Notes: a model not told the origin generated them from the sequence alone. A stretch of DNA of 35,584 nt from a virus (IMGVR_UViG_3300023284_002395:1-35584); one strand, 5' to 3'. Positions 1,535 to 30,388 are shown, counted from the stretch's first letter. Numbers and translations: made by a program.

Positions 1535-2195
1535 CGGTAGTCTCCGTCTGGATTCAATCCCCGGTATGGGTCCTCCCATCGACCTCCATGAGGTTCTCGG
1601 GTTCACCTGTACCTTTGATGATAATCCGAACGCCTGGGATGCCTGTACCGTGCCCTGCGGAAGCGAGGGCAGCCTACAGTTTGGTACTGTACCCGGGGTG
1701 GTCCCCAGCTCGCTCAACTCGCATAATGTGATAATCTGGGGCGACCTACGGGATTATGAGAACCCCGATTCGGTGGTCGAGTGGTTTGAGGAACGGCTCA
1801 GCGTCCTGTCGGACTACCGCTGTCGGCACCGGGGAGCGACCCTCCTCGCGCAGACCGAGGGTGACAACGGTTGGTGGCTCTACCAGAGCGCTAGCGAGGA
1901 ACCGGTCCATAAAATGTGCCTGGCCAAGGTACCCGGACGAACACAACCCTTTCCCCAAACCTGTCCCGACTGTGACTCATCCCAAATTCGTGCTCGACTC
2001 GAGCACGAAACCTTCCAGTACGGATCGTTGGCTGACGACGTAAACCTCGCGGTGGAAGTGATGGTTTACACCTGCGCTGCTTGTAAGTTCCAGTGGACCG
2101 ACTACATGGCCGAGGCAGCCCGTGACGCGGCGGTCCGGGCCTACCGCGAGTCTCTTAACGTTGGCGCGCGCGACACCAGTAATAGTCATGACTAG
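1512..2195 (+). CDS. Conserved phage protein with C-terminal zinc ribbon
   Basis: 227 residues. The N-terminal half begins MSVWTHVSG and contains PCGSEGSLQF and a VIIWGDLRDYE segment. This pattern is familiar from a widespread family of unknown phage proteins. The C-terminal part has CPDC near residue 155 and CAAC near residue 193, followed by FQWTDYMAEAARDAAV, typical of a zinc ribbon. The two parts are probably separate domains: an unknown N-terminal fold with a metal-binding tail. AGGAAACAAG upstream of ATG 1512 serves as ribosome site. Function is unknown; a nucleic-acid or protein-binding role is inference from the ribbon. Confidence 0.8.
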   Translation: MSVWTHVSGSLRLDSIPGMGPPIDLHEVLGFTCTFDDNPNAWDACTVPCGSEGSLQFGTVPGVVPSSLNSHNVIIWGDLRDYENPDSVVEWFEERLSVLSDYRCRHRGATLLAQTEGDNGWWLYQSASEEPVHKMCLAKVPGRTQPFPQTCPDCDSSQIRARLEHETFQYGSLADDVNLAVEVMVYTCAACKFQWTDYMAEAARDAAVRAYRESLNVGARDTSNSHD

Positions 2196-2456
2196 TTGAA
2201 ACACGATTTGTGGAGTTTTGTGGAGTTTTGTGGAGTTTTGTGGAGTTTCATGAAGGTTTACGGAGGCTGCGGTGAAAGGGGACGTGAAAGCGTGAACGGG
2301 CAACCGTTCCAACAGATAGCCCCTGTCGTGTGGCACCGAGTAAAGATCGCACACCAGTTGAGGCCCGGTAGTTGGATCTGCAAACTGCTGATACCCTTGC
2401 ATACGGTTTAAAGTACACACAAAGTGCGGCCAGCCTCCCCCTAATTAGGAAAACTG
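2196..2456. other. Mostly non-coding gap with short repeats and a GNRA hairpin
   Basis: This 261-bp gap begins with a 10-bp tandem repeat (see 2207-2248). Further on GAACGG (2294-2299), a GCAA tetraloop and CCGTTC (2304-2309) form a compact GNRA-capped hairpin. A TTG-started frame of 71 codons (2196-2411) is open but has no ribosome site and starts across the repeat, so I do not call it a gene. The site for the next gene (AGGA, 2447-2450) closes the region. Confidence 0.45.
2207..2248. repeat. 10-bp tandem repeat, about four copies
   Basis: TGGAGTTTTG is repeated at 2211-2220, 2221-2230 and 2231-2240, with partial units on both sides. The period of one helical turn places each copy on the same face of the DNA. 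It lies directly after the stop codon of the gene ending at 2195. It may be a regulator-binding array or replication slippage. Confidence 0.9.
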
Positions 2457-2840
2457 ATGTGCATTGAGGAGAAACCAGAAATCTGGATTGCCGGTGACCC
2501 GATACGGGCGTGGAAGGTAGTTACGTTCCCCGAACGCCAGTCGCGGTGGCTCCCGGAGAAGCGGGCTATCCTGTTCCGTTGGGAATGGCTTAGCGACTAT
2601 TACGAGAGTTATCCTTTTGTCAGGGGTCACGGGGAGTTGTTTACGTACCCGGTTGGTGCCAATGTGCGGTCAATCTGGCCCGGTATTTTCTGTCTTGTAA
2701 ACTGGCTCGAACCTGACGATTTTGAGAATGAAGCTCTGACTGTTATCAAGGTGGAGATCCCAACCGGGACTGAATTTGTGAAAGGAACCTCACAAGGTCG
2801 TGAAACGATTTGCGCGCAGGTGGTGAAGGTGCTGACGTGA
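2457..2840 (+). CDS. Conserved phage hypothetical protein
   Basis: 127 residues. It starts MCIEEKPEIWIAGDPIRAWKV and ends with LTVIKVEIPTGTEFVKG and ETICAQVVKVL. This layout, MC at the start, then P-x-I-x-IA and WKV, with a late IPxGTxFxxG segment, is one I recall in many small phage proteins of unknown function. AGGA lies six bases before ATG 2457. It overlaps the next gene by four bases (GTGA). No catalytic motif is evident. Confidence 0.75.
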   Translation: MCIEEKPEIWIAGDPIRAWKVVTFPERQSRWLPEKRAILFRWEWLSDYYESYPFVRGHGELFTYPVGANVRSIWPGIFCLVNWLEPDDFENEALTVIKVEIPTGTEFVKGTSQGRETICAQVVKVLT

Positions 2841-3325
2841 GTAAGTCCCAGATGGAGAGCATCCAAGAACGGCTTCAACTGTTAAACGAAGCGCGTCGGC
2901 TGATTGACTTGATTAATTTTGAATGGCAGTCCGACCCCATGAGCGTGGCGTGCTTTGATAACCGGATTATAGCGGAAACGCAGGCGTGGCTTGCAAGGCA
3001 TGACCGGCACGTAAAGGAAATTACGCTGGCGGCTCTTGTTGGCGCGTTGGTCGACGTCTATGAGGAAGATATTTACGCCGTGCGGCAGGTGTTTAAGCGT
3101 AACTGTTTTGGTGTTGTTCTCTCCGAGCGGACAAGTGATGATCCCCACGTGTGTTTTACTATTATCGTGGAAGATGACGGTAACTGGTTCGTGAACGGAA
3201 AAGATGCCGCTTCGGCTGTTTGGGTGGGAGAATTGCACGAATTACTCGGTGAGGCGAACCGGTGGATGGTCGAACACTGTAAAAAGGATGTTGGCGGATG
3301 GAGGTTTGAAGGGACAAACGGATGA
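2837..3325 (+). CDS. Hypothetical protein
   Basis: 162 residues from GTG 2837, which overlaps the upstream stop (GTGA) and has GAAGG about eight bases before it. TTG 2810 and ATG 2852 are alternatives. The N-terminal part looks helical, with a basic WLARHDRHVKE segment. The C-terminal half contains alternating strand-like segments such as VCFTIIVEDDGNWFVNG. No family is recognised. Confidence 0.65.
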   Translation: MSKSQMESIQERLQLLNEARRLIDLINFEWQSDPMSVACFDNRIIAETQAWLARHDRHVKEITLAALVGALVDVYEEDIYAVRQVFKRNCFGVVLSERTSDDPHVCFTIIVEDDGNWFVNGKDAASAVWVGELHELLGEANRWMVEHCKKDVGGWRFEGTNG

Positions 3326-3555
3326 ATTCTACGTGCTGGCAGACCATGGGGATCGACGGGAGACGCTTTGGGGTTTCCCCGGAATATGGCGGGCGCAATA
3401 GCCCGGTGTCTGCAAGTCAGGTGGTATGCGGTTGCAAACGTGACCACCTGGCGAATTTGAATTACGGGCCAATCATGTCGAGAGGAGGGATAACTGGCGG
3501 CCTGTTGCCAAGTGTCCAGCGTGAATACGCATATCTCAATGAAACAGGCTCTTGA
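3322..3555 (+). CDS. Hypothetical small protein
   Basis: 77 residues, beginning with an ATGA overlap on the upstream stop. Glycine- and serine-rich, with a CGC pair in the middle and a C terminus reading SVQREYAYLNETGS. No motif is recognised. A competing frame (3204-3401) is open but starts deep inside the upstream gene. Confidence 0.45.
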   Translation: MNSTCWQTMGIDGRRFGVSPEYGGRNSPVSASQVVCGCKRDHLANLNYGPIMSRGGITGGLLPSVQREYAYLNETGS

Positions 3556-3597
3556 CATGAGCGGCCCACCCTACGTGAGTTGTGGAGGGACACGTTG

Positions 3598-3954
3598 ATG
3601 AACGGAACGTTATCTATACTGAATGTAGGAGAGGGTGATACGACCCTGACTTTTGACAAAAAGAACCCGAAGGAACGAGAGAGGGCGGCGAAAATAGTGA
3701 CTGATATGCTGAGGCAGGGTTACGCGCTCTTGGTGCAGGTGGGGACCCGAAAAGGAGAGCCTACTTACCAGCGGGTGAAAGAATTTGACCCGCAGCGATG
3801 CGAGTACGTGATCGCGTCGGGTCCGGACGAGACGGTGGATATCGGGAAAGAGCCCGAGGAAAAGGTGACGAAGAAAAAAATTAAGAAAAAGACCCGGCGC
3901 ATCCCGGCGGGGAAAACAAAGGCGGTGGCGATGGGGAGAAGCGCCGGTGGTTGA
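3598..3954 (+). CDS. Conserved phage hypothetical protein with basic tail
   Basis: 118 residues from ATG 3598, which has GGAGGGA seven bases upstream. The first 75 residues (LSILNVGEGDTTLTF, then KNPKERERAAKIVTDMLRQGY, then YQRVKEFDPQRCEYVIA) resemble a phage family of unknown function that I recall from memory. A lysine-rich tail (KKKIKKKTRR) follows and could bind nucleic acid or the host envelope. It overlaps the next gene by eight bases. Confidence 0.75.
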   Translation: MNGTLSILNVGEGDTTLTFDKKNPKERERAAKIVTDMLRQGYALLVQVGTRKGEPTYQRVKEFDPQRCEYVIASGPDETVDIGKEPEEKVTKKKIKKKTRRIPAGKTKAVAMGRSAGG

Positions 3955-11569: not shown

Positions 11570-12073
11570 ATGAGTACACCCGCTCAATTAATTAACCGAA
11601 CGTCTGGAACACAGGAATACTGGACTCCTCACTTTATTACATATCGTGTGAGGGAATTTTTTGGTGTTATACATTTAGATCCCGCATCGTCACAGAGTGC
11701 AAATGAATGGGTGCAGGCTCGCGAAATTTATACGAGGGTTGAAGATGGGCTTAGACAACGATGGTACGGAAATGTGTGGATGAACCACCCTTTTGGGCGA
11801 AGAGAAAATCCGTTATGGGTAAGTAAGCTCATGGGAGAATACATGAGAAAACATTTAGTGGAAGCAATATGTATTACTTATGCGTGTACGTCGGAATCGT
11901 GGTTTCAGCCGCTTTTACAGCGGTTGCAATGCTTTTTGATCCCGCGAACAAATTATTACCTCCCGGACGGTTCATTGAAACGTGGTGTTACGAAAGGAAG
12001 CGTGCTCACGTATTTAGGGGAGCGACCTGACGAGTTTCGTAATACGTTTTCTGATCTTGGTGTTGTTAAATAA
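11570..12073 (+). CDS. dam: Phage DNA N6-adenine methyltransferase (Dam family)
   Basis: 167 residues. EYWTPHFITYRVREFFG followed by LDPASS (D37) and WMNHPFG (N72-G76) is the layout of the phage Dam family (PF05869), which transfers a methyl group from S-adenosylmethionine to adenine N6. The following ITYACTSESWFQPLLQR and RGVTKGSVLTYLG segments also fit. The catalytic tetrapeptide, usually NPPY/NPPF, reads NHPF here, a substitution possibly normal for this subgroup. Phage copies usually protect DNA against host restriction. No cognate nuclease is nearby. Sequence specificity cannot be told. Confidence 0.85.
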   Translation: MSTPAQLINRTSGTQEYWTPHFITYRVREFFGVIHLDPASSQSANEWVQAREIYTRVEDGLRQRWYGNVWMNHPFGRRENPLWVSKLMGEYMRKHLVEAICITYACTSESWFQPLLQRLQCFLIPRTNYYLPDGSLKRGVTKGSVLTYLGERPDEFRNTFSDLGVVK

Positions 12074-12630: not shown

Positions 12631-13320
12631 GTGTCCTCTGCGGAAATTAAATGCCTGGATAAAGGTTACGTGCGGCTTGTAGATTGGATGGGTCAAGACT
12701 TGTCTGTGGTACGAGCCGCGAGGGTTTCTTATGCGGCGGAGTGGCGATCTGGAGAGGATACGGGTAAAGACGCCCGTCTGGTTAAGTATATGTATGAGGG
12801 AAAGCACACTAGTCCTTTCGAGCATGTGGTGTTTACGTTTGAAGTTAAGGAGCCGATATTTGTGTTCCGACAATGGCACCGACACCGGACTTGGAGTTAT
12901 AATGAACTTTCGTCTCGATATGCTGAGATGAAAGATGAGTGGTACCTTCCCGATAATGCTAAGATTGGGAAGCAGTCCAAATCTAGTAAGCAGGCAAGGG
13001 ACTTATCTGAAGAAATACGAGAGGCGGAGGAAGTAGTTAACCTGATGGAGCATGCGAATAAGCAATCCTATCAGGTTTATCAGCAGTTGTTGGAGAAGGG
13101 AGTACCGAGAGAGTTGGCGAGGTCGGTTTTACCGGTAGCTATGTACTCGAAGATGTTTGCTACTGTTGATCTCCATAACCTTTTCCACTTTTGTACACTG
13201 AGGATGCACGAGCACGCGCAATATGAGATTAGAGTTTACGCCCAAGCTATGTTTGAGCTGGTTAAACCTCTTGCACCAGTGGCATGTGGTTGTTTTGAGG
13301 AACAGATTAATGAGCTGTGA
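12631..13320 (+). CDS. thyX: Flavin-dependent thymidylate synthase ThyX
   Basis: 229 residues, within the usual ThyX range. The signature RHRxxSxNExSxR is present as RHRTWSYNELSSR at 84-96. Typical flanks are seen: HTSPFEHVVFTFEVKEPIFV before it, and ELARSVLPVAMYSKMFATVD and LRMHEHAQYEIRVYAQAM after it. ThyX makes dTMP from dUMP using methylene-tetrahydrofolate, FAD and NADPH in the cytoplasm, raising thymidine supply for phage DNA synthesis. GTG 12631 starts three bases after the upstream stop with no strong ribosome site, suggesting translational coupling. Confidence 0.95.
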   Translation: MSSAEIKCLDKGYVRLVDWMGQDLSVVRAARVSYAAEWRSGEDTGKDARLVKYMYEGKHTSPFEHVVFTFEVKEPIFVFRQWHRHRTWSYNELSSRYAEMKDEWYLPDNAKIGKQSKSSKQARDLSEEIREAEEVVNLMEHANKQSYQVYQQLLEKGVPRELARSVLPVAMYSKMFATVDLHNLFHFCTLRMHEHAQYEIRVYAQAMFELVKPLAPVACGCFEEQINEL

Positions 13321-18706: not shown

Positions 18707-18759
18707 CCTGGCCGGCTAGATAGAGAGGAAAGTCTGTCCCTTTTATTAGGAGGGCCAGG
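18707..18759 (+). promoter_or_regulatory. Leader inverted repeat covering a ribosome site
   Basis: CCTGGCC (18707-18713) pairs with GGCCAGG (18753-18759). The 3' arm overlaps the AGGAGG site (18748-18753) and the first base of the GTG start (18759). The transcript from the 18671 promoter would start near the left arm. The stem could hold back translation of the HTH gene. Confidence 0.5.
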
Positions 18760-19358
18760 TGGGTAAGTTGTATTCCGAGCAGGGGATAACGGCGTCTGCT
18801 AACCTGGCGACGATATACCAAAGAGAAATTTTCTTTCAAGTCGATCCCGCTTCCCTCGACTACCTCCCCGACGATCATCTTTACGATAAATTTCCCAGTG
18901 GGTTTTACCTGGATCTTGATGTAAAGTCGTTACTGGGATACCTTCCTGACCTGGAAGCGGAGATATTTTTCCTGGTTTACGTGAAGAAAAAGAATCAAAA
19001 AGATGTTGGACGACTTCTAAACCTGTCCCAGCCGACAGTTTCCTATAGATTTAGGAGGGTTTTCTATAAGATGTCGTATCTCTTGACGTTGCTGACTATA
19101 GATGTGAGAGCGATTATAGATGACTTGGGGTTCTTGAAGGATTATGAAAAAGATGTGCTGTTTGACCTGTTTTTTTACACTAACCAAGAAAGAGTGGGTA
19201 AGAAACATGGAGTGAGACAATCGTCGGTGAAATGGATATTTGTGAAGACCAAAAGACGACTGACCGAACTCGAAAGGGCTGACTGTGAGAGGTGGTTTAA
19301 TCATTTAGGCTTGTTTATATTACTGGAGAAGAACATGGGTATGAGGATAATGCGTTGA
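18759..19358 (+). CDS. Sigma-region-4-like HTH protein
   Basis: 199 residues from GTG 18759. Two stretches look like the helix-turn-helix of sigma70 region 4: LEAEIFFLVYVKKKNQKDVG with LLNLSQPTVSYRFRRVF (about residues 66-105), and a second, LKDYEKDVLFDLFF with KKHGVRQSSVKWIFVKTKRRL (about 127-165). The protein probably binds DNA, as a phage sigma-like factor, transcription regulator or packaging recognition protein. It is the first gene after the strong promoter and overlaps the probable terminase small subunit. A duplicated HTH in one chain is unusual but not unknown. Confidence 0.65.
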   Translation: MGKLYSEQGITASANLATIYQREIFFQVDPASLDYLPDDHLYDKFPSGFYLDLDVKSLLGYLPDLEAEIFFLVYVKKKNQKDVGRLLNLSQPTVSYRFRRVFYKMSYLLTLLTIDVRAIIDDLGFLKDYEKDVLFDLFFYTNQERVGKKHGVRQSSVKWIFVKTKRRLTELERADCERWFNHLGLFILLEKNMGMRIMR

Positions 19359-19996
19359 GTAAAGAGGGTGAGAAGCGACTAATTCCTGATCCCCACGGTA
19401 TGATAGCGCGTATCAGGGCAAAATTGAACCCTCTCTGTTCCGTGCGGAACAGTAAGTACTGTGACGTGATTATTGCGATGCGGATGCAGGGTATCGCATT
19501 CATGGAGATTGAGAAATTTCTGGTTAGTGAGGGGAAACAGCACCGAATCACAGCGTCAACAGTGTGTCGCAACTTGAAGGCGACTAAGATGCAGGTGCAG
19601 CTGCCCTACGCGGAAGAGATTGCGGAGAAGTGGGGCGGGCAAATTGACTTGGACCTGACTCGGGAGATTTCGTTGCAGATTATGAACCAACGAAAGCGAA
19701 TTGACCATATGCTGCGACAGGAAGAAGGAGTCCAGAAGACGAATCCGCGGTACGTGGATAAGCGGATAGCAAGGGAGATGGAGGTGTTGACTGGGTTTGT
19801 TAAGACCTTACAGGCACAGCTTAAAGACCCAATGGAAGCGGCAAAGGAGAGCGTGGCGGCGCAGGACATGCTGGAGCAGGCGGGACACGTGGATGTATCG
19901 GAAAAGGGAGCTGAGGAGCTGACCCGGATGGTGCTCGATGGGGATATAACACTGGGTGATCCGTCAGATGAAGACTTTTTATCAACTACGCACTGA
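19355..19996 (+). CDS. terS: Probable terminase small subunit
   Basis: 213 residues from TTG 19355, overlapping the upstream stop by four bases with GAGGAT upstream. Residues 25-75 (CDVIIAMRMQGIAFMEIEKFL and ITASTVCRNLKATKM) form an HTH-like helical domain, followed by long helices (RKRIDHMLRQEE; DKRIAREMEVLTGFVKTLQ) and an acidic tail. DNA-binding N terminus, helical oligomerisation core and a position directly before TerL fit a TerS, which recognises the packaging site. No sequence signature is decisive. ATG 19400 is a shorter alternative without a ribosome site. Confidence 0.6.
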   Translation: MSKEGEKRLIPDPHGMIARIRAKLNPLCSVRNSKYCDVIIAMRMQGIAFMEIEKFLVSEGKQHRITASTVCRNLKATKMQVQLPYAEEIAEKWGGQIDLDLTREISLQIMNQRKRIDHMLRQEEGVQKTNPRYVDKRIAREMEVLTGFVKTLQAQLKDPMEAAKESVAAQDMLEQAGHVDVSEKGAEELTRMVLDGDITLGDPSDEDFLSTTH

Positions 19997-21455
19997 CGCT
20001 GCACCCCCACAAAGAGCAATAACGGGTTTGGCGGTTCCTGACTTAAAGAAAGAGATAGCGAAGCTCTGTCGGACTAACTTTCTGGTGTTCCAGAAGGTGG
20101 AGCTGGGGATGGAGATCGGGAAGCACCATAAAGAATGGGCCAACCGTCTGATCACCAAGAAAGATGTTTGTGAAATGGCGCCCAGGGACCACGGAAAGTC
20201 GATGTCGATGGCTCGGGCGTACCCTCTTTGGAGAGCCAAATACGACCCGTGGTGCGAGGATATTTATCTCCTGGGAGCTGACCTGCCATCGGCGGTGGAG
20301 AACCTTGATAAGATAAAGGAAATGCTTTATAAGTCGCCATCGTTGCACACGTTGATTCCAACCGAGCGGGCGGACGGGATGAATTCTCGAACGGAAATGA
20401 TGCTGAAGAACGGGACCACGATAAGGTCAAAGGGTTACCAGTCACCCCTACGAGGACGGCATCCGCAATTGATTGTGCTTGATGACGTGTTGAACGAGAA
20501 GAATTCGTTGACGCCGAATCACCGGAGAGATGTTGCAAGTCATTTTTGGGAAGTGATTTTCCCGATGAAGGATAAAGGGCTGCCATCTACGAGAAGGAGA
20601 GGGCATTTTTCACAGATAGTGGTGGTGGGGACTGCGCAGGATCGAGAGGATCTGTACCATGAGTTGCATCGAAATGATGCGTTTATTGGGGATAAAATGG
20701 TATCGATTTTGGATGATTTTGAAGAGGAGGTGCTCTGGCCGGAAAGGTATAGTTATGCTGATTTGATGTCGATTAAGGCGGCAGCGGGGGCACTGCATTT
20801 TTCAAAAGAATACATGAACGAGCCCCTTTCGGATGATACGACTATTTTCCCACCCTCGTTGTTTGAGCCTCTTAAGGATCGGGAGATTAGTTACCAAAAT
20901 GGATATACGGGGAATAACCCAGTTTATCTTGGGGTGGATTTTTCGATCCCGGGGTCGGCTGACGGAGATTGGACGGTGGTGCTCGCCGTGGAATTTGATC
21001 CATTGGAGCACCTGTACACGGTGTTAAATTATTGGCGTGCAAGGCCCGACTCAACGCAAGAACAGATTCATAAGATAGAGTTGTGGTGCGAGTTATATAA
21101 GGTTAGCGCGGGGTTCTTAGAGGACAATATATTTCAGCGGATTTACGCGGAACACTTTAGGCGTAATACGGTACTGCCGTTAGTGGGACATACGGTAACG
21201 AGCCATAAGAAAATGTCGGTGGAATATGGAATTGTCTCTTTTAGGCCGCAGTTTGAAAATGGAAGATGGCGGTTCCCATACAAGAATGCGGCCGACCAGC
21301 AGAAGACGGACTTGATTGTGACAGAATTTAATGGTATTCGTCAAAAGGATGGGAAGATTGGTAATATGAGTTACCATGATGATATAGTAATGGCGATGTG
21401 GCACGCGGCTTCAGCGTCAACAGGAACGGCTTTCCAGGCTGATTGGGGTGACTGA
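19968..21455 (+). CDS. terL: Terminase large subunit
   Basis: 495 residues from ATG 19968 (GGGTGA eight bases upstream; GTG 19956 possible). Walker A is APRDHGKS (71-78), and Walker B is LIVLDD (168-173). The C-terminal RNase H-like nuclease starts with LGVDFS (D324) and ends with SYHDDIVMAMWHA (D471, D472). This is the DNA-packaging motor: the ATPase pumps DNA into the prohead and the nuclease cuts concatemers. Length is normal. It overlaps TerS by 29 bases and its stop overlaps the portal start. Confidence 0.93.
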   Translation: MKTFYQLRTDAAPPQRAITGLAVPDLKKEIAKLCRTNFLVFQKVELGMEIGKHHKEWANRLITKKDVCEMAPRDHGKSMSMARAYPLWRAKYDPWCEDIYLLGADLPSAVENLDKIKEMLYKSPSLHTLIPTERADGMNSRTEMMLKNGTTIRSKGYQSPLRGRHPQLIVLDDVLNEKNSLTPNHRRDVASHFWEVIFPMKDKGLPSTRRRGHFSQIVVVGTAQDREDLYHELHRNDAFIGDKMVSILDDFEEEVLWPERYSYADLMSIKAAAGALHFSKEYMNEPLSDDTTIFPPSLFEPLKDREISYQNGYTGNNPVYLGVDFSIPGSADGDWTVVLAVEFDPLEHLYTVLNYWRARPDSTQEQIHKIELWCELYKVSAGFLEDNIFQRIYAEHFRRNTVLPLVGHTVTSHKKMSVEYGIVSFRPQFENGRWRFPYKNAADQQKTDLIVTEFNGIRQKDGKIGNMSYHDDIVMAMWHAASASTGTAFQADWGD

Positions 21456-22951
21456 TGCCCACGGTAACACAAAGGTTAAGGCACATTATCGGAGATGAGT
21501 TTGGCGCTGCGGTAGTGGAGCAGAACTTGGAGAAGGCAATACGGCAGGCTAAGGAATCTGCTAGACCCCCGGAGACTCAGTTTTTCGACTCACTGTCGAT
21601 GTTCATGGGGACTGATTGGGTGCGGAAGAGCAGTCAGCCGCTGTCGTTCACGGATCTACGAGGTATGGCAACTAACCCGATTGTGGGATCGATTATTCAG
21701 ACGCGACTGGCCCAAACTGCGTCATTTATGAATCCCCAAGAAAGTAAGTTTGAGCACGGTTTCGTGATTGAGGCTAAGGACCGGGATGATCAAAAAGACC
21801 GGAAAGGTAAGACCGAACTGACGGCATGGTTGATGGGAGCGGGGATACCGGGCTACGGGGAACTTAGTTTGGAACAACTCGCCCGGAAGATGATAAGGGA
21901 TAGTCTGGTACTAGATCAGGCGACAGCGGAGATTGTCCCACGTAGGAATGGGGCACCCGCCTATTTGGTGGCGATAGACGCGGCGACGATACGCCTGCTC
22001 TTGGCGAAACTTAACCATGCGACCCCTCCGGGATCAGACGAGCTTCTGTACGTGCAGCTGATTAATGAAAAGATCGTGACGTCTTACACAAGCGAGCAGA
22101 TGATATTTGGGGTGCGTAACCCACGGACGGATCTTAAAGCGGCGGGTTACGGGTTCTCCGAACTGGAAATGCTGATACGGACGGTGACCACGATCTTGAA
22201 CACGGAGAGATTTAATTCGGGGCAGTTGCAGCAGGGAGGTACTCACAAGGGTATTTTTGTTCTCAGAGGCCAGGCGGATGCCACGCAGTTTGCGGCTTTC
22301 AAGCGAGATTTTAGGGAAGCCATGCGTAACGCGGGACAATACTGGCGACCCCCGGTGCTTCAAGTGTCGAAAGACTCGGAGGTGGATTGGGTGAAGTTGG
22401 ATTCTAGTAACCGGGATATGGAGTATTCGTCGCTGTTTGATTTTTTGGTGAAGCAGGCTTGCGGAGTCTACCAGATCGACCCGTCGGAGATAAATTGGAC
22501 GATCGGAGCAACTGGGGTGCGGACGACTTTTGAATCGACACAGGACAAGCGTCTTGCGTTTTCCCAGAGGAAAGGATTACAACCATTACTATCCTTTTTC
22601 GCGGACCTACTGAACCAATGTGTGATTAGCCGGATTGACCCTAGGTTTGCGATAAAATTTGTGGGATTGCTGGCGAACAGGCAACAGGATGGGGAAATTA
22701 GAGAACGAGAAGTCAAGAATTTTAAGACTATTAATGAACTGAGGGAAGAATTGGGGCTTGATCCGATTGATGGTGGAGATATTGTTCTTAACGAGCAATA
22801 TTTGCAGTCGATCGGGGTGGGGATGGATAGAGAATCGCAGCAGATGGATCTGCGAAAGTTGCGAAGTACTATTGCTCGACAAACAGGAAAAGAATTCGAT
22901 CTAGACAAGACGAATGATTCGACGAATCGCAGCGATTCTAAGAGGGGATAA
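21455..22951 (+). CDS. Portal protein
   Basis: 498 residues, ATG 21455 overlapping the TerL stop (TGATG). Features of portals are seen: NPIVGSIIQTRLAQTASFM near residue 80, KMIRDSLVLDQATAEIV, GYGFSELEMLIRTVTTILN, the stem-like SSLFDFLVKQACGVYQIDPSEINW and a C-terminal INELREELGLDPIDGGD segment. The portal forms the ring at the head vertex through which DNA passes. Length and position after TerL support the call. Its stop overlaps the polymerase-domain gene by one base. Confidence 0.88.
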   Translation: MPTVTQRLRHIIGDEFGAAVVEQNLEKAIRQAKESARPPETQFFDSLSMFMGTDWVRKSSQPLSFTDLRGMATNPIVGSIIQTRLAQTASFMNPQESKFEHGFVIEAKDRDDQKDRKGKTELTAWLMGAGIPGYGELSLEQLARKMIRDSLVLDQATAEIVPRRNGAPAYLVAIDAATIRLLLAKLNHATPPGSDELLYVQLINEKIVTSYTSEQMIFGVRNPRTDLKAAGYGFSELEMLIRTVTTILNTERFNSGQLQQGGTHKGIFVLRGQADATQFAAFKRDFREAMRNAGQYWRPPVLQVSKDSEVDWVKLDSSNRDMEYSSLFDFLVKQACGVYQIDPSEINWTIGATGVRTTFESTQDKRLAFSQRKGLQPLLSFFADLLNQCVISRIDPRFAIKFVGLLANRQQDGEIREREVKNFKTINELREELGLDPIDGGDIVLNEQYLQSIGVGMDRESQQMDLRKLRSTIARQTGKEFDLDKTNDSTNRSDSKRG

Positions 22952-25512
22952 TGCCAATACCGGGCCAGGTGCGCCCCACACAACGTCTTCCAGACACGGT
23001 TAGGAGGGCGAAGCTGCCGTTTGATATTCTTAACGTTTTTGACGAGGAAGCGACTCGGGAGTTTGGAAGGCTCCTTAACCAAGCGTTTGCTATTATCGAG
23101 GCGGAGGTGGCGAATGATGAGGGAGATCCTGAGGCCATGGTCCTGCAGGGAGCTAACGAACCCCTTAAGCGAGCGACGGATTCAGGAGAGATTGAGGAGA
23201 TCCAGGAGAGAAAATCGGTAGAGCAAGCGGTGGTGGATTACGGGAGGAGAGCACGATACGGAGCACCCACCCGACCTGGCGGGCAGCTGGCGGATAGCGA
23301 GATAGATCGGATTTTGCATATGATACCGTTTAAGAGCGGAGAATTGCGTATGGATATGCAACGAGCTCGGGTACCAATGCAAGAGCTGAGTAAGCTTAAA
23401 TGGGAAAGAAAAATAATAGCGCTGGAAAGGGTGGTAGCATTGATGCCTCTTTCGAGCGTGGAGCTTAAAGAATCTCTACAAGAGGCAAAGGCGCGGACCA
23501 TAAGAACGATAGAATTGAAGGGGAGCGATGACGTGACGGTGCTCGTGGGGAGCGCGGAAGTGCTGGCAGGACTGATTAATTTTGTGCCCGCATTACCAAT
23601 GTTGGTGGCGAGACCGAAGGAACCGGGAATGTTGGAAATGGAGACTCAGCCAACAGTGACTCTGGATGAAATGGTGGCTCTGGGAAGATTTATCACCCGT
23701 GATTGGGTATATAGACTACCTAGCGTGTTCGAGCCGGTGGCGGAACAGGCGAGAAAATTCAGTGCTGACGATCCGGTGGGGTTTGGGCGGGCTTTCGAAG
23801 GAACGGTCTCCTATAGAGAAGAGGAGCTTAGGGAAAAAGCGGATCTTGCAGACTTGAAGAGGATGCAGTTTTGGCAGAAGCTCTATAACCGGTTTCGAAA
23901 GGACCATGGTGAGACGGAAGCTCTACGGATGGTTAGGGCTCATTCGGAGTGGAAGAAGGTAGAGCAGAGGGCTCTTAACGCTCTACGGAGGATGGAGGAC
24001 GCTGAAAAAGAGGGACATGAGAAACGAGAGGCGGTGAGGGCGGCGGATAAACGGGTGGATGAGTTGGCAAAGGAAGATGGGTTGAAAGTGGTGCCGACTA
24101 ACCCGATACAACTCTACATAGAAGCGAACAAGGGAGTAGGCGGGTTCCTGAAGGATGACTTGACAACGGCTTTTATATCTGATATAATACCCACTGATGT
24201 GATGGAAACGGCAACATTCGACACGTTTCCTGATGAGAGTATTAATGAAGATATGGATATAAAAATTGACAAGTTCAATGTGATTCTCCCGAAGGACACG
24301 AATAGTTTCCGTATTGAGGAGGAGTTGACACCGATTACGGCGGAGATGAACGCGACCGCGTTGGTGGTTAACTCTCAAACTTGGAAGAAGAATAGAGAAG
24401 CGAAGATGCGGGAGTTTCGCGGTAAAGAAGAGCAGGCGCGGCAAATTGCGGGAGACCTGACTTTGAATGTGGGTTCAAGTCGTGACTGTTCGAGAATTCT
24501 TTTCGAAGAGAATGGCCTGCCAGTACAGAGGATTAACAAAAAGACCGGAGTTCCGGCGTGTGACAAAGAAACTCTCCAGGTTCTCCATAATATGGGCTCT
24601 TCGTCGGCGGGAGCGATTATCGAGGCTCGTGAGGCCAAGACCCAACTTTCCCAATTAAATAAGTGGAAGCCGTTCGCGGAGGCCGGACAAGTCCAGTGTA
24701 ATTGGCTACAACTCGGTACCCCGCACGGACGATACGCCTGTGAAAGCCCGAACCTACAAAACCGGATCGTGGCGATACGAGAGACGATTGAGGCACCGCA
24801 AGGAATGCAACTCCTGTCATTTGATCTTGGACAAACGGAATATGTGACATTTGCTTCGTTGTCGAAAGACCCGACTCTGACCGCAGCTTTTTTGGCGGGG
24901 AAAGATTTTCACTCTGCGATGTACGATGAACTCAGAGAGGCGGTGCCGGAGTTGGCTAATCTAAAAGACCTGGGTCGGAAAATTGGGAAGACGATTAATT
25001 TTGCTATTCTTTACCTGATGCAGGCGTTTACGCTTGCTAAGCGGTTGGGTGCGGATGTGAAGACCGCGGAGAAGATTCTTGTTAATTATAACCAGCGGGC
25101 ACCGATTGCGGCTAAATATATAGTGGACTACCTGGAAAGAGCGCGCCTGAACGGGAAGGCGGAGACGGCCTTCGGCCGGGTGCGTTTGATGCCCGAGTTG
25201 AAGAGGGCGCGGGGCGCGGACCTACATAAGCAACAGAAAACGGCTTGGCACCATCATAACGCGGGAACGGCGGCCGAGTTGATGAAGATTAAGCAGATTA
25301 AAGCGTGGAAAGCGGTTCGACGAAGCTTTGACGAAGCTGATGTGAGACTTGCTTTGCAGATGCATGATGAGCTTATTTTTGTGGTGAAGGATGAACTGGT
25401 GGATTCGGTGGGACAGGCTGTTCAAGCTAGTCTTGATGAGCCGATAAAAGGTTTTATAAATTTTGTGACTGATCGTCGTGTGGGTCGAAATTGGGGACAA
25501 ACATCCAAATGA
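22951..25512 (+). CDS. Family A DNA polymerase domain fused to a large unknown N-terminal region
   Basis: 853 residues, ATG 22951 overlapping the portal stop. Residues from about 454 are a PolA palm, thumb and fingers: ITAEMNATALVVN, ESPNLQN (598-604), motif A FDLGQTEY with catalytic D625 and E630, motif B RKIGKTINFAILY with R676, K680, F684 and Y688, and motif C QMHDE with D806. It should add nucleotides to a DNA primer. No 3'-5' or 5'-3' exonuclease motifs are visible. Motif A differs from the usual DYSQIE, and the glycine after the motif B tyrosine is a leucine. Residues 1-450 are unrecognised, with a charged coiled coil at about 290-375. The place between portal and minor head gene is highly unusual. 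Confidence 0.85.
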   Translation: MPIPGQVRPTQRLPDTVRRAKLPFDILNVFDEEATREFGRLLNQAFAIIEAEVANDEGDPEAMVLQGANEPLKRATDSGEIEEIQERKSVEQAVVDYGRRARYGAPTRPGGQLADSEIDRILHMIPFKSGELRMDMQRARVPMQELSKLKWERKIIALERVVALMPLSSVELKESLQEAKARTIRTIELKGSDDVTVLVGSAEVLAGLINFVPALPMLVARPKEPGMLEMETQPTVTLDEMVALGRFITRDWVYRLPSVFEPVAEQARKFSADDPVGFGRAFEGTVSYREEELREKADLADLKRMQFWQKLYNRFRKDHGETEALRMVRAHSEWKKVEQRALNALRRMEDAEKEGHEKREAVRAADKRVDELAKEDGLKVVPTNPIQLYIEANKGVGGFLKDDLTTAFISDIIPTDVMETATFDTFPDESINEDMDIKIDKFNVILPKDTNSFRIEEELTPITAEMNATALVVNSQTWKKNREAKMREFRGKEEQARQIAGDLTLNVGSSRDCSRILFEENGLPVQRINKKTGVPACDKETLQVLHNMGSSSAGAIIEAREAKTQLSQLNKWKPFAEAGQVQCNWLQLGTPHGRYACESPNLQNRIVAIRETIEAPQGMQLLSFDLGQTEYVTFASLSKDPTLTAAFLAGKDFHSAMYDELREAVPELANLKDLGRKIGKTINFAILYLMQAFTLAKRLGADVKTAEKILVNYNQRAPIAAKYIVDYLERARLNGKAETAFGRVRLMPELKRARGADLHKQQKTAWHHHNAGTAAELMKIKQIKAWKAVRRSFDEADVRLALQMHDELIFVVKDELVDSVGQAVQASLDEPIKGFINFVTDRRVGRNWGQTSK

Positions 25513-25724
25513 CGAAGGTGAAGTTTCAAGGAAATTTTACGGGAAAGGAAAAGTTCCCAGTCAGGGCGTGTCAGTTTTGTTCAGAGCCTCTGGTTGACGG
25601 GGCGATTTACGTGTTCCATCAGGGAATAGGATGTCCTTATGTGCGAGCTTTGAAATTGAATGACGAGGGAAGGTTACGGAAGATTTATTTTGAGAACAGT
25701 CAACTGGACCAGTATGTGAATTAG
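25509..25724 (+). CDS. Small Cys-containing protein
   Basis: 71 residues from ATG 25509, overlapping the polymerase stop by four bases. It carries RACQFCSEPL and, 17 residues on, a third Cys in GIGCPYV, suggesting a partial zinc site. The C-terminal part is charged. Possibly an accessory of the polymerase gene. No family is recognised. Confidence 0.6.
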   Translation: MTKVKFQGNFTGKEKFPVRACQFCSEPLVDGAIYVFHQGIGCPYVRALKLNDEGRLRKIYFENSQLDQYVN

Positions 25725-25726
25725 TT

Positions 25727-26212
25727 ATGTCAAAGGAGAAACAGCCGAGAGTTGAATATACTGCGTGGGATCCGGGTACCATGGGGTATGGTCATCACGA
25801 GTATCAGGAGATTGATCCGGATACTATTAACCTGGAAGATTACGCGACTCGATTTGAAGGAGAGCAGCAACACACCGGAGAGGTGCGGGAGTATAATTCT
25901 GCGGATAACGAGCAATATCCGGAGAATGATGTGGATTTTCTTTGGATGACTCGAAAAGGAACGATAATCAGAACTGAAGCTGCAGGACTTGAAGGTGAAT
26001 GGATGGTGGCGGATATGCCGACGGTGAAGAACCGAAAAGATATCTACGTGAGTCTTGTACGAGTGGGTCAGGAGGGTCCACCGGAAAATGTCTTAGCGTC
26101 GAGATTAGGGATAGTGGTGAATCGGAAGAACCTGTTTGAGCAGGTTAAGACGGTAATGGTGACTAAAGCAAAGGTGGGTCGTAAAGATAGGATAAGATTG
26201 ACCCAGTTATAA
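25727..26212 (+). CDS. Hypothetical protein of the head module
   Basis: 161 residues. The N-terminal 75 residues are polar and acidic (YGHHEYQEIDPDTINLEDY; NADNEQYPENDVD-like). The C-terminal part is more globular (GLEGEWMVADMPTVKNRKD; DIYVSLVRVGQEG). No ribosome site is clear, so it is probably coupled to the gene before. Its stop overlaps the next start. Confidence 0.6.
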   Translation: MSKEKQPRVEYTAWDPGTMGYGHHEYQEIDPDTINLEDYATRFEGEQQHTGEVREYNSADNEQYPENDVDFLWMTRKGTIIRTEAAGLEGEWMVADMPTVKNRKDIYVSLVRVGQEGPPENVLASRLGIVVNRKNLFEQVKTVMVTKAKVGRKDRIRLTQL

Positions 26213-26403
26213 TGATCGAGTGGATAGTTAATCTGAGGCTTTGGGAGATCGCGCAGGTTAAAGCAGCGAAGGTGCTCCCGAAGTTTTCACGCAGCTTCTG
26301 GCAGGAGGTACTTAAGATATACCGTAATGCTGGGGGTAAACTTGTTGATGAAGAGCTGAGCCAAACTGAGATAGAGGAGGAACAAGATTTGTTAGAGGAT
26401 TGA
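26212..26403 (+). CDS. 63-residue hypothetical protein
   Basis: ATG 26212 overlaps the upstream TAA. The protein has a Trp-rich helical N terminus (IEWIVNLRLWEIAQVKAAK) and an acidic C terminus (QTEIEEEQDLLED). It ends one base before the MuF-like gene. No family is recognised. Confidence 0.55.
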   Translation: MIEWIVNLRLWEIAQVKAAKVLPKFSRSFWQEVLKIYRNAGGKLVDEELSQTEIEEEQDLLED

Positions 26404-26404
26404 A

Positions 26405-27424
26405 ATGCTCCTAAACCGAGCGACCGAGAGGCGAATAGAACGTATAATTGAGGCGCTTAGCAGTTCGTTCGCGGTGTTTTCTATAGGGAGAGAGTTGGGC
26501 CAGTCTGTTCCTCAGGCGGCCCTTTCTGCGTTGTCGTTGACCACGTCAGGTCAAATTACCTTTCTTGAACAATCATACGTAGCGGGTAAAGTCGCCAGTC
26601 TTGCGGGGACGGATGCTTTGCGAAGGATGACTGTGCGGGAACTGGAAGATTTTGTCCGGGCTTCGGCGATGACTTTGACCGAAACGGACCGAGCTAAGAT
26701 ATTGGGTCTTAGGGACGATATGGAACGATTAATACAAGGAAGATCGGAGGCTTGGAGGGCCCGGATACGTACTGAAATAGCGAGAACTGACCGAGAATGG
26801 AGAGCCCTGTTGGAAGGAAGAACGTTTGCGTCGGGAGCGGCGATTACGGTAGCAAGAAATGCGGTGTTGGCTAGCTTGAGAGACAGATTACGAGATCAGG
26901 CGGCGGGAATGCAGGAAGACGTGAGTAAGTTGGTGCAGACTGAAATGAACGTTTTCTTTCAAGCTGGACAGGTGGCAGATATACTGGACGATGAATTTGT
27001 GTGGAAACAGCCACGGCTGACGGCCTGTCAGTATTGTATGCGCCTGCACACGAACGTGGACGGTTCGCCGAAGAAATACCGACTGGGAGACGTGAGGGGA
27101 ACGACAAATTTGGGAATGCCAGCATTGTCATGGTCTTTTACGATCGGCCCGGTGCACCCGTTTTGTTACTGCACGTTGTTTATAGAGTCGGCTAAGGCGG
27201 GACCGAAGAAAGATGCTCGACTAGCGGCAGCTCGACGGTCGCGTCTTAATAAAACGGAGGAGTTGAGAAAGGGGGTCTACGGGGAAAATGGGCATGTTTG
27301 CGACAGCCCCTATACCCTGTTTGAAAATGCGAACTGTGAAGATGGTGAACCGGATGTACATGTAATAAAAATGATTGAGTACGTAAGTAAGATATACGGA
27401 GACCGGTTTGGTTTTGATTTGTGA
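26405..27424 (+). CDS. MuF-like minor head protein
   Basis: 339 residues from ATG 26405. The N-terminal 190 residues are helical and charged. The C-terminal domain has ACQYCMRLHTN (about 206-216) and, 30-40 residues later, HPFCYCTLF (about 249-257), the C-x-x-C plus HPxCxC pattern of the SPP1 gp7/Mu F-type head morphogenesis domain. Such proteins sit inside the head near the portal, and some carry a toxin tail; the 65 residues after the motif show none that I recognise. Position downstream of the portal fits. Confidence 0.85.
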   Translation: MLLNRATERRIERIIEALSSSFAVFSIGRELGQSVPQAALSALSLTTSGQITFLEQSYVAGKVASLAGTDALRRMTVRELEDFVRASAMTLTETDRAKILGLRDDMERLIQGRSEAWRARIRTEIARTDREWRALLEGRTFASGAAITVARNAVLASLRDRLRDQAAGMQEDVSKLVQTEMNVFFQAGQVADILDDEFVWKQPRLTACQYCMRLHTNVDGSPKKYRLGDVRGTTNLGMPALSWSFTIGPVHPFCYCTLFIESAKAGPKKDARLAAARRSRLNKTEELRKGVYGENGHVCDSPYTLFENANCEDGEPDVHVIKMIEYVSKIYGDRFGFDL

Positions 27425-27468: not shown

Positions 27469-28263
27469 ATGTTTGCGGATACACTTCCTGACGTAAATAC
27501 GGCACTAGACGGGCCAAACCATCCTCTCTGTGATGGTTTTATGACCCTTTGCAAGGTGGCTGACTCGGATGACGAGACCAAACCTTGGAAGTTTATGGGG
27601 ATAGCCTCGGATTCTTCGCAGGATGTTGATGGAGATGAGATTCTGAAGAAGGCTCTTGACCTGACGTACGCGAAATCGCGGGGGTTTGTCAATTGGGATC
27701 ACGGCCGTGCTCCGTCTGACCAAATAGGATTCCTGACTAAAGCTGAACTGATAGATAAGGACCAAGTGACTAAACTGGAGAAGCAGTTCGGAACACCAGT
27801 TTCCCCGACTTCAACTGTTCTGGTTGAGGGAGAGCTCTATAAATACGTGCCGAAGGCGGCGGAAGTTTTTGATATCATGAAATCCACCCCTACGGGCCAG
27901 CCAGGGCTCGGTTTGTCGTTGGACGGAGTGATGGCACGAGATGTGCAGGACGGGGATATTGTTAAGGCTTTTGTGCGAGGTATTGCGGTGACGCCGGTAC
28001 CAGCACAGCCCCGGACGTTGATGCGGCTGAAAAAATCGCTGCAATCTTGGCAAGGGGTGGATAAACTGGCTATCACCCCGGAATTATCACGCACAATTGC
28101 TAATGACGTGGTAGATTTGTTAAGGAAGTCGACGAGCGATTCGACCAGGCAGTCAGGAATGTCGGATGACGAAGCTATTCTTTTCCTGCTGAGGAAGCGC
28201 CCCAAGTGGCCCTACTGGCTGGCAGAAAGAATTGTTCAGTACGCGAAGCGAAAAGGTAAGTAG
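27469..28263 (+). CDS. Prohead protease-like protein (XkdF-like)
   Basis: 264 residues from ATG 27469 with AAAGGACG upstream. GIASDSSQDVDGDEILKKAL, then FVNWDHGRAPSDQIG (His near residue 79), then LVEGELYKYVPKA, then GLGLSLDG (Ser near residue 150) follow the order of phage serine proteases of the XkdF/prohead-protease type, with His and Ser as catalytic pair. It should mature the scaffold or capsid during head assembly. The C-terminal 80 residues look like a helical extension. Gene order (before scaffold and capsid) agrees. Confidence 0.75.
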   Translation: MFADTLPDVNTALDGPNHPLCDGFMTLCKVADSDDETKPWKFMGIASDSSQDVDGDEILKKALDLTYAKSRGFVNWDHGRAPSDQIGFLTKAELIDKDQVTKLEKQFGTPVSPTSTVLVEGELYKYVPKAAEVFDIMKSTPTGQPGLGLSLDGVMARDVQDGDIVKAFVRGIAVTPVPAQPRTLMRLKKSLQSWQGVDKLAITPELSRTIANDVVDLLRKSTSDSTRQSGMSDDEAILFLLRKRPKWPYWLAERIVQYAKRKGK

Positions 28264-28272
28264 GAGACTGAA

Positions 28273-28980
28273 ATGAGCGATGAGAAGACGGAAACGGGCG
28301 CCGAATCCACCGAAAAGGAGGAGAAAAAGGAGGAGAATGGCGTTATCACTGAAGAAGACCTCCTGAAAAGCCTCAAGGGTCTTGAAGGAAAGGTCGAAGA
28401 GGAAGAGGGTGAAAAGGAAAAGAAGGTGGAAACCACGAACCTCGATAAGTCCGCGGCGGACAAGGTCAAGGAGGAAGCAAGCGAGGAGCTGAAGAAGGCC
28501 CTTGAAGTGTCTGATGTTCTCAGCGAGGTCGTGGGAATTATCGGCGTGCATGTCGACTCTTCGTTGGAAGCGATGCAGAAATCGGTGCAGGCGGCTGCCG
28601 ACCGTGATCTGGCAATGATTCGAGTTCTTGAGCGTCTGTCGAAGGCGGTCGAGGCGAACACCGAGGCGGTCAAGAAGTACGGGGACGAACCTACCACAGG
28701 GAAGTCGAAGACCGCGGAAGGTGACGGTGCGAACACCGAGATACTGGAAAAAGGTGCCGACGGGGGCCAGGGGGAGAAAACCCCCGAGGAGAAAGCCGCC
28801 GCGATGAGGGGACAAATCCAAGCTGGATTGGAGTCTCTGGTCAAGTCGGCTGACAGGGGGACGCAAGAGCAGCAGCAGTTGATTAACGCGGCTGTCAAGT
28901 TCGAGTCCACCGGTCAGATTGATGACATCATGCTTCAAAAGGCGATCGGAGCCTACAAGAAGCTGTCGTCGGCGGCCTAA
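28273..28980 (+). CDS. Scaffolding protein
   Basis: 235 residues from ATG 28273 with TAGGAGACTGAA upstream. Extremely rich in Glu and Lys, with no Cys; the first 90 residues are Glu/Lys runs and the middle is a helix (SLEAMQKSVQAAADRDLAMI; RLSKAVEANTEAVKKYG). This is the usual composition of capsid scaffolds. It lies between protease and major capsid genes, where the scaffold belongs. It guides head assembly and is then lost or cleaved. Confidence 0.8.
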   Translation: MSDEKTETGAESTEKEEKKEENGVITEEDLLKSLKGLEGKVEEEEGEKEKKVETTNLDKSAADKVKEEASEELKKALEVSDVLSEVVGIIGVHVDSSLEAMQKSVQAAADRDLAMIRVLERLSKAVEANTEAVKKYGDEPTTGKSKTAEGDGANTEILEKGADGGQGEKTPEEKAAAMRGQIQAGLESLVKSADRGTQEQQQLINAAVKFESTGQIDDIMLQKAIGAYKKLSSAA

Positions 28981-29011: not shown

Positions 29012-30388
29012 ATGCCCGAAAGTTTCAACATTGAGGAAGGCTTTGGTGAAAGCTCCATGGCTGACCTCGTGGAGCTTCGTAAAGCTCTAGAGATTGGTAC
29101 ATCCCAACCCGTGACCGGCACCGGATTCGATGCCCTCCGGGTGGAGAGTCTGGAAGCAACCCTGAAACTGCTGACCTACAGCGCGGAACATGTGAAACTG
29201 TGGAACATGATTCCCAAGCTGGAGGCTTTTAGCACGGTTGAGGAATACAACCGACTGGTGGAGTACGGTACGGAAGCCGGTGGATTCGTCGCGTCGGGTG
29301 AGTTGCCGGAGGAAGAAGACACCACGTACGAACGCGCGGACCAGAAGGTCAAGTATATTGGCTCGACTCGGTCCGTTCATCACCCAGCAACCCTGGTTCG
29401 AACGGTACCGGCTGACCTGATTTCGCAGGAAACCCAGAATGGTGCTCTCTGGATCATGAAGAAGGCCAACCGTGGCCTTTACTACGCTGATTCGGCGGTA
29501 ATCCCGTTGGAATGGAATGGTCTGCAATCGCAGCTTCTGTCAGGTGCCGGTAACGTAATCGACGCGGCCGGTGCGGGTCTCTCGGAAAGTGATGTCGAGA
29601 ATGCGGCCCAACTCGTGATAGATAACTACGGGACGCCGACACAGCTATTCTCGAACCCGAAGGTGTTCGTGGATTTCGGTAAGACCTATCAAAGCTTCCA
29701 GCGATGGGCGCAGCCGGGTGGTCGAGCTGGAGTGGCAGGTACCCCGACTACGGGTTTCAACACATTGTCGGGATTGATTAACTTCCAGGCGGACACTTTC
29801 GTGCTTCGTGGAACACGTCCGACGGCGGCAGCGAGTTCGCCAAAGTCCCCGCCGGCTCCTACGCTGACCCTGGGTACACCGGGTGCAAATCCGCTTTCAA
29901 AGTTCCTGGCAGGGGACGCGGGTAACTATCGTTACGAGGTGACGGCTATCAACCGATTTGGTGAGTCGGCTCCCTCGGTGGAAACCGCAACGGTTAACAT
30001 TTCGGCGGGTGAAGATCATGCTCTGGTTATCACCGATTCAGGAGGCACTTACCCGGCAACCGGTTACAAGATTTACCGGACCCCGGTGGGTGGTACGACG
30101 GCAACGGCAACCTGGATTAACCTGGCGATCGCTCGAGCGCAGTCCGGTGGAGTTTACACTTCGCCCACCACGTTCACGGATCTGAACGAGTGGCGGGAGA
30201 GCACGTTCATGGCACTCCTGTTGGACATGACGAGTCAATCGCTGTCCTTCAAGCAGCTGTCACCGATGATCAAGATGCCGCTGGCGACTATCAGCCCAGC
30301 TATTCGTTGGATGCAGCTTCTGTACGGGACGCCGATCTTGTACGCTCCGAAGAAGAACGTCCTGATCAAGAATATCGGCTCGCTCTAA
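29012..30388 (+). CDS. Major capsid protein with an Ig/Fn3-like insertion
   Basis: 458 residues from ATG 29012 with AAGGAG upstream. The first 280 residues (LRKALEIGTSQPVTG; SAEHVKLWNMIPKLEAFSTV; LISQETQNGALWIMKKANRG) and the last 60 (SPMIKMPLATISPAIRWMQLLYG) appear to be the capsid fold. Between them, about residues 285-395, lies a beta-sandwich-like segment, GNYRYEVTAINRFGESAPS to YPATGYKIYRTPVGG, with the AINRxGES pattern of Ig/Fn3-like domains. Such domains decorate the capsid surface. The call rests on position, strong expression signals and the following terminator. Confidence 0.85.
   Translation: MPESFNIEEGFGESSMADLVELRKALEIGTSQPVTGTGFDALRVESLEATLKLLTYSAEHVKLWNMIPKLEAFSTVEEYNRLVEYGTEAGGFVASGELPEEEDTTYERADQKVKYIGSTRSVHHPATLVRTVPADLISQETQNGALWIMKKANRGLYYADSAVIPLEWNGLQSQLLSGAGNVIDAAGAGLSESDVENAAQLVIDNYGTPTQLFSNPKVFVDFGKTYQSFQRWAQPGGRAGVAGTPTTGFNTLSGLINFQADTFVLRGTRPTAAASSPKSPPAPTLTLGTPGANPLSKFLAGDAGNYRYEVTAINRFGESAPSVETATVNISAGEDHALVITDSGGTYPATGYKIYRTPVGGTTATATWINLAIARAQSGGVYTSPTTFTDLNEWRESTFMALLLDMTSQSLSFKQLSPMIKMPLATISPAIRWMQLLYGTPILYAPKKNVLIKNIGSL

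Follow-up and report, generated by a model that had tools for sequence, protein, structure and literature searches.

The 35,584-nucleotide stretch of viral DNA analyzed here (IMGVR_UViG_3300023284_002395; hereafter, the window) carries on its plus strand a head operon with the gene order TerL-portal-polA-(three small genes)-MuF-like-protease-scaffold-capsid. Ahead of TerL lies a small-terminase-like gene (19355–19996), so designated by position and conserved, without a family match; it is followed by the genes for the terminase large subunit (TerL, 19956–21455; phrog_38, E 6e-58) and for a portal protein related to SPO1-type portals (21455–22951; phrog_12, E 4e-37; PF04860). Next comes polA (22951–25512), which encodes an exonuclease-less family A DNA polymerase fused to an N-terminal region of ~430 residues. 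The genes that follow are a small one at 25511–25724, a conserved gene without assigned function (25727–26212) that stays with the operon and is also found in L002, a relative without the embedded polymerase, a further small conserved gene of unassigned function (26212–26403), a MuF-like or head-morphogenesis gene (26405–27424), a prohead protease gene (27469–28263; phrog_1028, E 1e-14), a gene in the scaffold position (28273–28980, by synteny with SPO1), and the gene for the major capsid protein (29012–30388; phrog_752, E 1.5e-84). We regard the portal, TerL, and capsid identifications, made by profile matching, as solid. Directly 5' of the packaging genes is a gene for a sigma-70 region-4-like protein (18759–19358, plus strand; PF04545, E 6e-8), conserved at 55–63% identity in five relatives (L003, L006, L007, L018, and L023), and genes for ThyX (Thy1; 12631–13320) and a Dam-like methylase (11570–12073) also lie 5' of the operon.

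An earlier note on this DNA had placed polA between the portal and MuF-like genes with short overlaps on both sides. The overlaps stand: in the junction TAATG the last base of the portal stop codon is also the first of the polA start, and the polA stop and the start of the following gene share the sequence ATGA. The MuF-like gene is not adjacent, however, because three small genes (beginning at 25511, 25727, and 26212) intervene. Its name, moreover, is weakly supported, with a match to phrog_1657 ("head morphogenesis") in two of nine family members at E ~0.006 and no Pfam match for the family, which does share a conserved CxxC...HPxCYC pattern. The closest familiar arrangement is the SPO1-type (Herelleviridae) head operon, which has a homologous portal and capsid and the order portal-protease-scaffold-capsid; unlike the window operon, however, it has nothing between portal and protease.

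The embedded polymerase and its active site

The 853-residue reading frame, beginning with ATG, and the placement of its PolA motifs in the C-terminal half were both confirmed by ORF calling, Pfam, and motif alignment. Pfam assigns residues 483–850 to DNA_pol_A (PF00476; E 7.4e-59; score 200 bits, cut-off 34.3), a PHROG DNA polymerase profile matches at E 6e-44, and an hmmsearch comparison of Klenow with the polymerase domain gives E 4e-53. The best structural match is likewise to Klenow/KlenTaq (Foldseek E 1.9e-20 to 3po4, ~27% identity), and from these profile and structure matches we delimit a domain with thumb, palm, and fingers at residues 437–853 (24259–25509). The 3'-5' exonuclease domain PF01612 is absent by Pfam search from the window polymerase and from the relatives of its N-terminal region. 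By its sequence, the window protein belongs to DNA polymerase family A, keeps its catalytic motifs intact, and has no 3'-5' exonuclease. The best matches to its polymerase domain among annotated phages are only ~28% identical; one of the best matches in the phage library, H7, proved to be a bacterial chromosome contig, and MT837997 and MT839172 group apart from the embedded clade in the polymerase tree.

The catalytic residues quoted in the earlier note (D625, E630, R676, K680, F684, Y688, and D806) are all correct by alignment, to which H805 and E807 may be added. Across eight aligned embedded polymerases, motif A (D625 to E630; 24823–24840) and motif C (H805-D806-E807; 25363–25371) are invariant, as are both catalytic aspartates and, in motif B, or the O-helix (R676-K680-F684-Y688; 24976–25014), the residues R676, K680, and Y688. 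The L009 polymerase has an asparagine in place of the O-helix phenylalanine F684.

What sets the embedded clade apart is a segment between motifs B and C. Where family A enzymes usually have INxPxQGTA, the clade has WHHHNAGTA (25246–25271), and more broadly the Pol I segment RxxINxPxQGT is replaced by KxxWHHHNAGT in all members. Although not family-defining, a QGT-type segment that includes N845 and Q849 by E. coli numbering is usual in family A; in the same numbering, the substitutions are Q849 to A, N845 to H, and R841 to K. These three residues are primer-template contacts, and with all of them altered the activity of the embedded enzyme may be low or otherwise changed; it may be an active but unusual polymerase. 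Compared with bacterial Pol I, the embedded protein shares the Klenow/KlenTaq fold and motifs A, B, and C, but lacks the 3'-5' exonuclease and the 5' nuclease, has WHHHNAG for INxPxQG, and adds a phage-specific N-terminal region and a location in the head operon.

Conservation and ancestry

Scanning IMG/VR with portal, TerL, and polymerase alignment queries recovered relatives that a single-protein pattern search of viral contigs with the polymerase alone had not matched. The earlier note had proposed looking for the gene order elsewhere, and seven other contigs (L006, L009, L010, L018, L020, L021, and L023) keep it: the portal, then the polymerase, then the MuF-like gene and the protease, with the capsid gene also present in all except L020, which ends before it. 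Three fragments (L004, L005, and L024) are consistent with parts of the same arrangement. Of 2.9 million viral contigs, 8 contain the DNA form of the WHHHNAGTA signature; all are listed above, and each has it at the head-operon position. A search of 84,980 prokaryote genomes gave no match. The one-base overlap of portal and polymerase is shared by the window, L004, L006, L010, L020, and L021; L018 has a 300-base gap and L023 one of 12 bases.

Between relatives, dN/dS is 0.05–0.12 for the polymerase domain, as opposed to 0.13–0.22 for the N-terminal region, values that are rough, being simple Nei-Gojobori counts with some dS above 1. The polymerase is under purifying selection, with its catalytic motifs kept. 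Base composition runs smoothly across the borders of the gene. The earlier note had offered insertion of a stray gene as its alternative and a chimeric join near the gene ends as a finding that would overturn its reading, and both are refuted, because the order recurs in independent assemblies from several other metagenomes, the gene is under selection, and composition is smooth. The conserved order, the distribution of the signature, and the smooth composition also rule out bacterial contamination and a recent insertion. Nothing speaks for an artifact confined to one contig beyond the odd contig L005, which has no bearing on the others, and we assign such an origin practically no probability.

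L005 (1–7525; 7.5 kb) has a terminal direct repeat of 144 bases and would close to a circle holding the small-terminase-like gene, TerL, the portal, the embedded polA, two small genes, and an ORF of ~75 residues at the junction, without capsid genes; it is either an assembly artifact or a satellite-like element. L024 has extra genes (1218–1643) between the end of the polymerase and the MuF-like gene, one of which starts MTKLEELLRLHEGVRKKPYK, resembling the start of a phage lysozyme.

Replicative polymerases of tailed phages had been contrasted in the earlier note with the embedded one as normally sitting in a replication module, a contrast that G011 (118 kb) strengthens, since it has both kinds. 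Besides an embedded gene at 85103–87721, it encodes a 747-residue PolA at 56354–58597 that carries the 3'-5' exonuclease domain (PF01612) and has as neighbors genes for DnaB-like and SNF2-type helicases, an AP-endonuclease-like protein, and a DNA ligase. Because this separate, exonuclease-bearing enzyme resides in a replication module, the head-operon enzyme is a dedicated extra polymerase. The window phage is expected to have such a second PolA as well, outside the 35.6-kb fragment. G001 (72.6 kb), on the other hand, has only the replicative-type PolA, and the portal gene in its head operon is followed directly by the counterpart of the gene at 25727.

A tree of polymerase domains unites the nine embedded sequences in a single clade (support 100/100), set off by a stem of 1.69 changes per site; its nearest neighbors are the replicative PolA of G011 and G001 (93/87). 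Possibly the embedded polymerase arose when the PolA of the phage itself was duplicated long ago. The nearest group differs from the clade in its exonuclease (shown for G011), in a Cys-rich insert before motif A, and in lying outside the head operon. That insert, in the replicative PolA of G011 (L084 16357–18597, minus strand) and of G001 (L015), is ~120 residues long with cysteines of the CxxxxCxGCPxxC type, possibly a metal or Fe-S site. The portal tree is compatible either with loss of the embedded gene from G001 or with G001 having branched off before the gain. L002, too, has a similar head operon without the embedded gene, and so the polymerase is evidently dispensable there.

The N-terminal region

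The N-terminal 450 residues have no match among annotated phages, nor do this region and its relatives match anything in Pfam or among PDB sequences. In L009 the portal is followed by a separate 171-residue ORF and then by a 422-residue polymerase. The first ~55 residues of the window protein (22951–23115) match the start of this portal-adjacent ORF (E 1.1e-5), which is the only sequence, apart from its own members, found by a profile of the segment built without L009. The two L009 ORFs (1935–3672) lie in different frames and overlap by 47 bases. To judge by this split form, a polymerase gene became fused to a portal-adjacent one, or else L009 lost the middle; the split may also be a sequencing error in L009. 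When the segment profile was run against six-frame translations of 11 contigs as a candidate capsid-targeting tag, no other protein was found to carry it, and no known capsid-targeting signal is recognized in the embedded polymerase.

Structure prediction of the region, one of the checks suggested in the earlier note, gives AlphaFold models (mean pLDDT 69–71) in which two elements are predicted. At residues ~150–221 (23398–23613) is a predicted beta-beta-alpha-beta-beta-alpha-beta unit resembling the ParB/sulfiredoxin fold; Foldseek relates it to viral ParB/Sulfiredoxin proteins with probabilities as high as 1.00 and to 1vk1 with 0.96, at E > 0.01 throughout. It is followed by a long helical hairpin or coiled-coil region at residues ~238–376 (23662–24078). 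A Pfam profile search gave no ParB/sulfiredoxin sequence match for the unit, and none of the DdrB-ParB, MPTase, or LPD domains was detected by Pfam in the embedded protein or its N-terminal relatives. VIA-align matches of the N-terminal model were set aside, as common long-helix arrangements filled the list. At the G-x-x-R place, which we take to be the position of the ParB/sulfiredoxin active-site arginine, fused members have, by eye, residues of the GAEE/GSAE type. With the usual arginine apparently missing, the model suggests a non-catalytic unit that may serve as a binding fold. The relatives, with the exception of the window and L009, have an additional stretch, GERVEIRNAQGEWVPGVVNRIDG..., ahead of the polymerase, which is possibly SH3-like from its appearance.

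That the region acts as a localization domain, as the earlier note supposed, is plausible in view of the ~55-residue segment shared with the portal-adjacent gene of L009 and of the ParB/sulfiredoxin-like fold.

Possible roles in the phage head

Known virion cargo of tailed phages includes RNA polymerases, ADP-ribosyltransferases, and nucleases. The coupling of polA to the portal gene, the presence in a relative of a separate replicative PolA, and the portal-associated N-terminal segment together make a head-linked role for the embedded polymerase the most likely one. In our leading reading, to which we would give somewhat less than an even chance, this second, dedicated DNA polymerase is produced together with the head proteins, would be packaged and ejected, and would then fill gaps or ends on the entering DNA. 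The N-terminal half, with its docking helix, ParB/sulfiredoxin-like fold, and helical hairpin, would bind the portal vertex or the procapsid interior and carry the polymerase into the head; at infection the enzyme would exit with the DNA and extend 3' ends, either to fill single-stranded gaps or recessed ends in the incoming genome or to provide a first round of synthesis before phage gene expression. A shade more tentatively still, we propose that a clade of tailed phages packages its own DNA polymerase in the capsid through an N-terminal region that is ParB-like and docks on the portal, and that the enzyme is ejected together with the genome. In favor of the leading reading are the position kept in eight contigs including the window, the clade-only signature, the overlap with the portal gene, the purifying selection, the separate replicative PolA of G011, the N-terminal segment that in L009 belongs to a gene of its own, and the Klenow fold match. 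A ParB-type domain encoded next to virion genes has been described as characteristic of phage proteins with predicted packaging, among which a processed form of P1 DdrB has been shown in the head, and the N4 virion RNA polymerase is a precedent for a packaged polymerase (PMC5512222). Like these polyvalent or packaged effectors, the embedded protein combines several fused domains, is encoded in the late virion region close to a MuF-like gene, and has a predicted ParB/Srx-type fold; it differs in being a family A DNA polymerase, a kind of enzyme to which the survey text (PMC5512222) makes no reference. We found no packaged, virion, or portal-coupled DNA polymerase of a tailed phage described in the open-licence literature, which is weak evidence of absence.

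The main rival to packaging and ejection is a polymerase that acts at the packaging motor and never enters the virion: made late and docked on the portal or terminase through its N-terminal region, it would fill gaps or ends of the concatemer for packaging. The operon location and the translational coupling of polA to the portal gene speak for it, an exonuclease-less enzyme suits gap filling, and the TerL and portal genes accompany the polymerase throughout the clade; an elaborate 430-residue ParB-type region is nonetheless probably closer to packaged phage proteins than to motor partners, and we consider the proposal unlikely, if well worth entertaining. An accessory late gene unrelated to the head, serving, for example, lesion bypass, recombination repair, or counter-defense, could also have settled in the operon of one clade. 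Corndog encodes methyl- and glycosyltransferases between portal and protease, reported from infected cells (PMC4351075), and this analogy, of enzyme genes so placed without shown virion presence, tells against packaging in general, as do the absence of the polymerase from L002, its unusual active site, and the lack of a recognizable capsid-targeting signal. An accessory function would fit as well with L002, which does without the polymerase, with gain and loss as the portal tree allows, and with a weak match of the polymerase domain to the defense-associated PolA model RTasPolA (E 2e-12, far below the generic PolA score). It sits poorly, however, with a position that is invariable across the clade, with the in-frame joining of the polymerase to a segment whose L009 counterpart lies beside the portal, and with the stop/start overlap with the portal gene, and to us seems quite improbable. 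We think it slightly less probable again that the protein is an inner head component whose polymerase fold is kept mainly for DNA binding, with weak synthesis or none. The invariant WHHHNAG in place of the primer-template-contacting INxPxQG segment and the F684 replacement in L009 are what such a protein might show, but the invariance of the catalytic residues across eight sequences and the tighter selection on the polymerase domain than on the N-terminal region argue otherwise.

Should packaging and ejection prove true, the virion DNA polymerase would be the DNA counterpart of the virion RNA polymerases of N4 and crAss-like phages. With a dedicated, exonuclease-free PolA that always accompanies the portal, next to a distinct replicative PolA, the question arises whether these phages need DNA synthesis during packaging or at the moment of entry, possibly for repairing gapped ends. 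An enzyme with unusual properties may result from the changes in the primer-template segment. These uncultured phages, with an extra DNA polymerase and its phage-specific front section inside the head-building gene block, offer in their fused, split, and absent forms of the polymerase a natural comparison.
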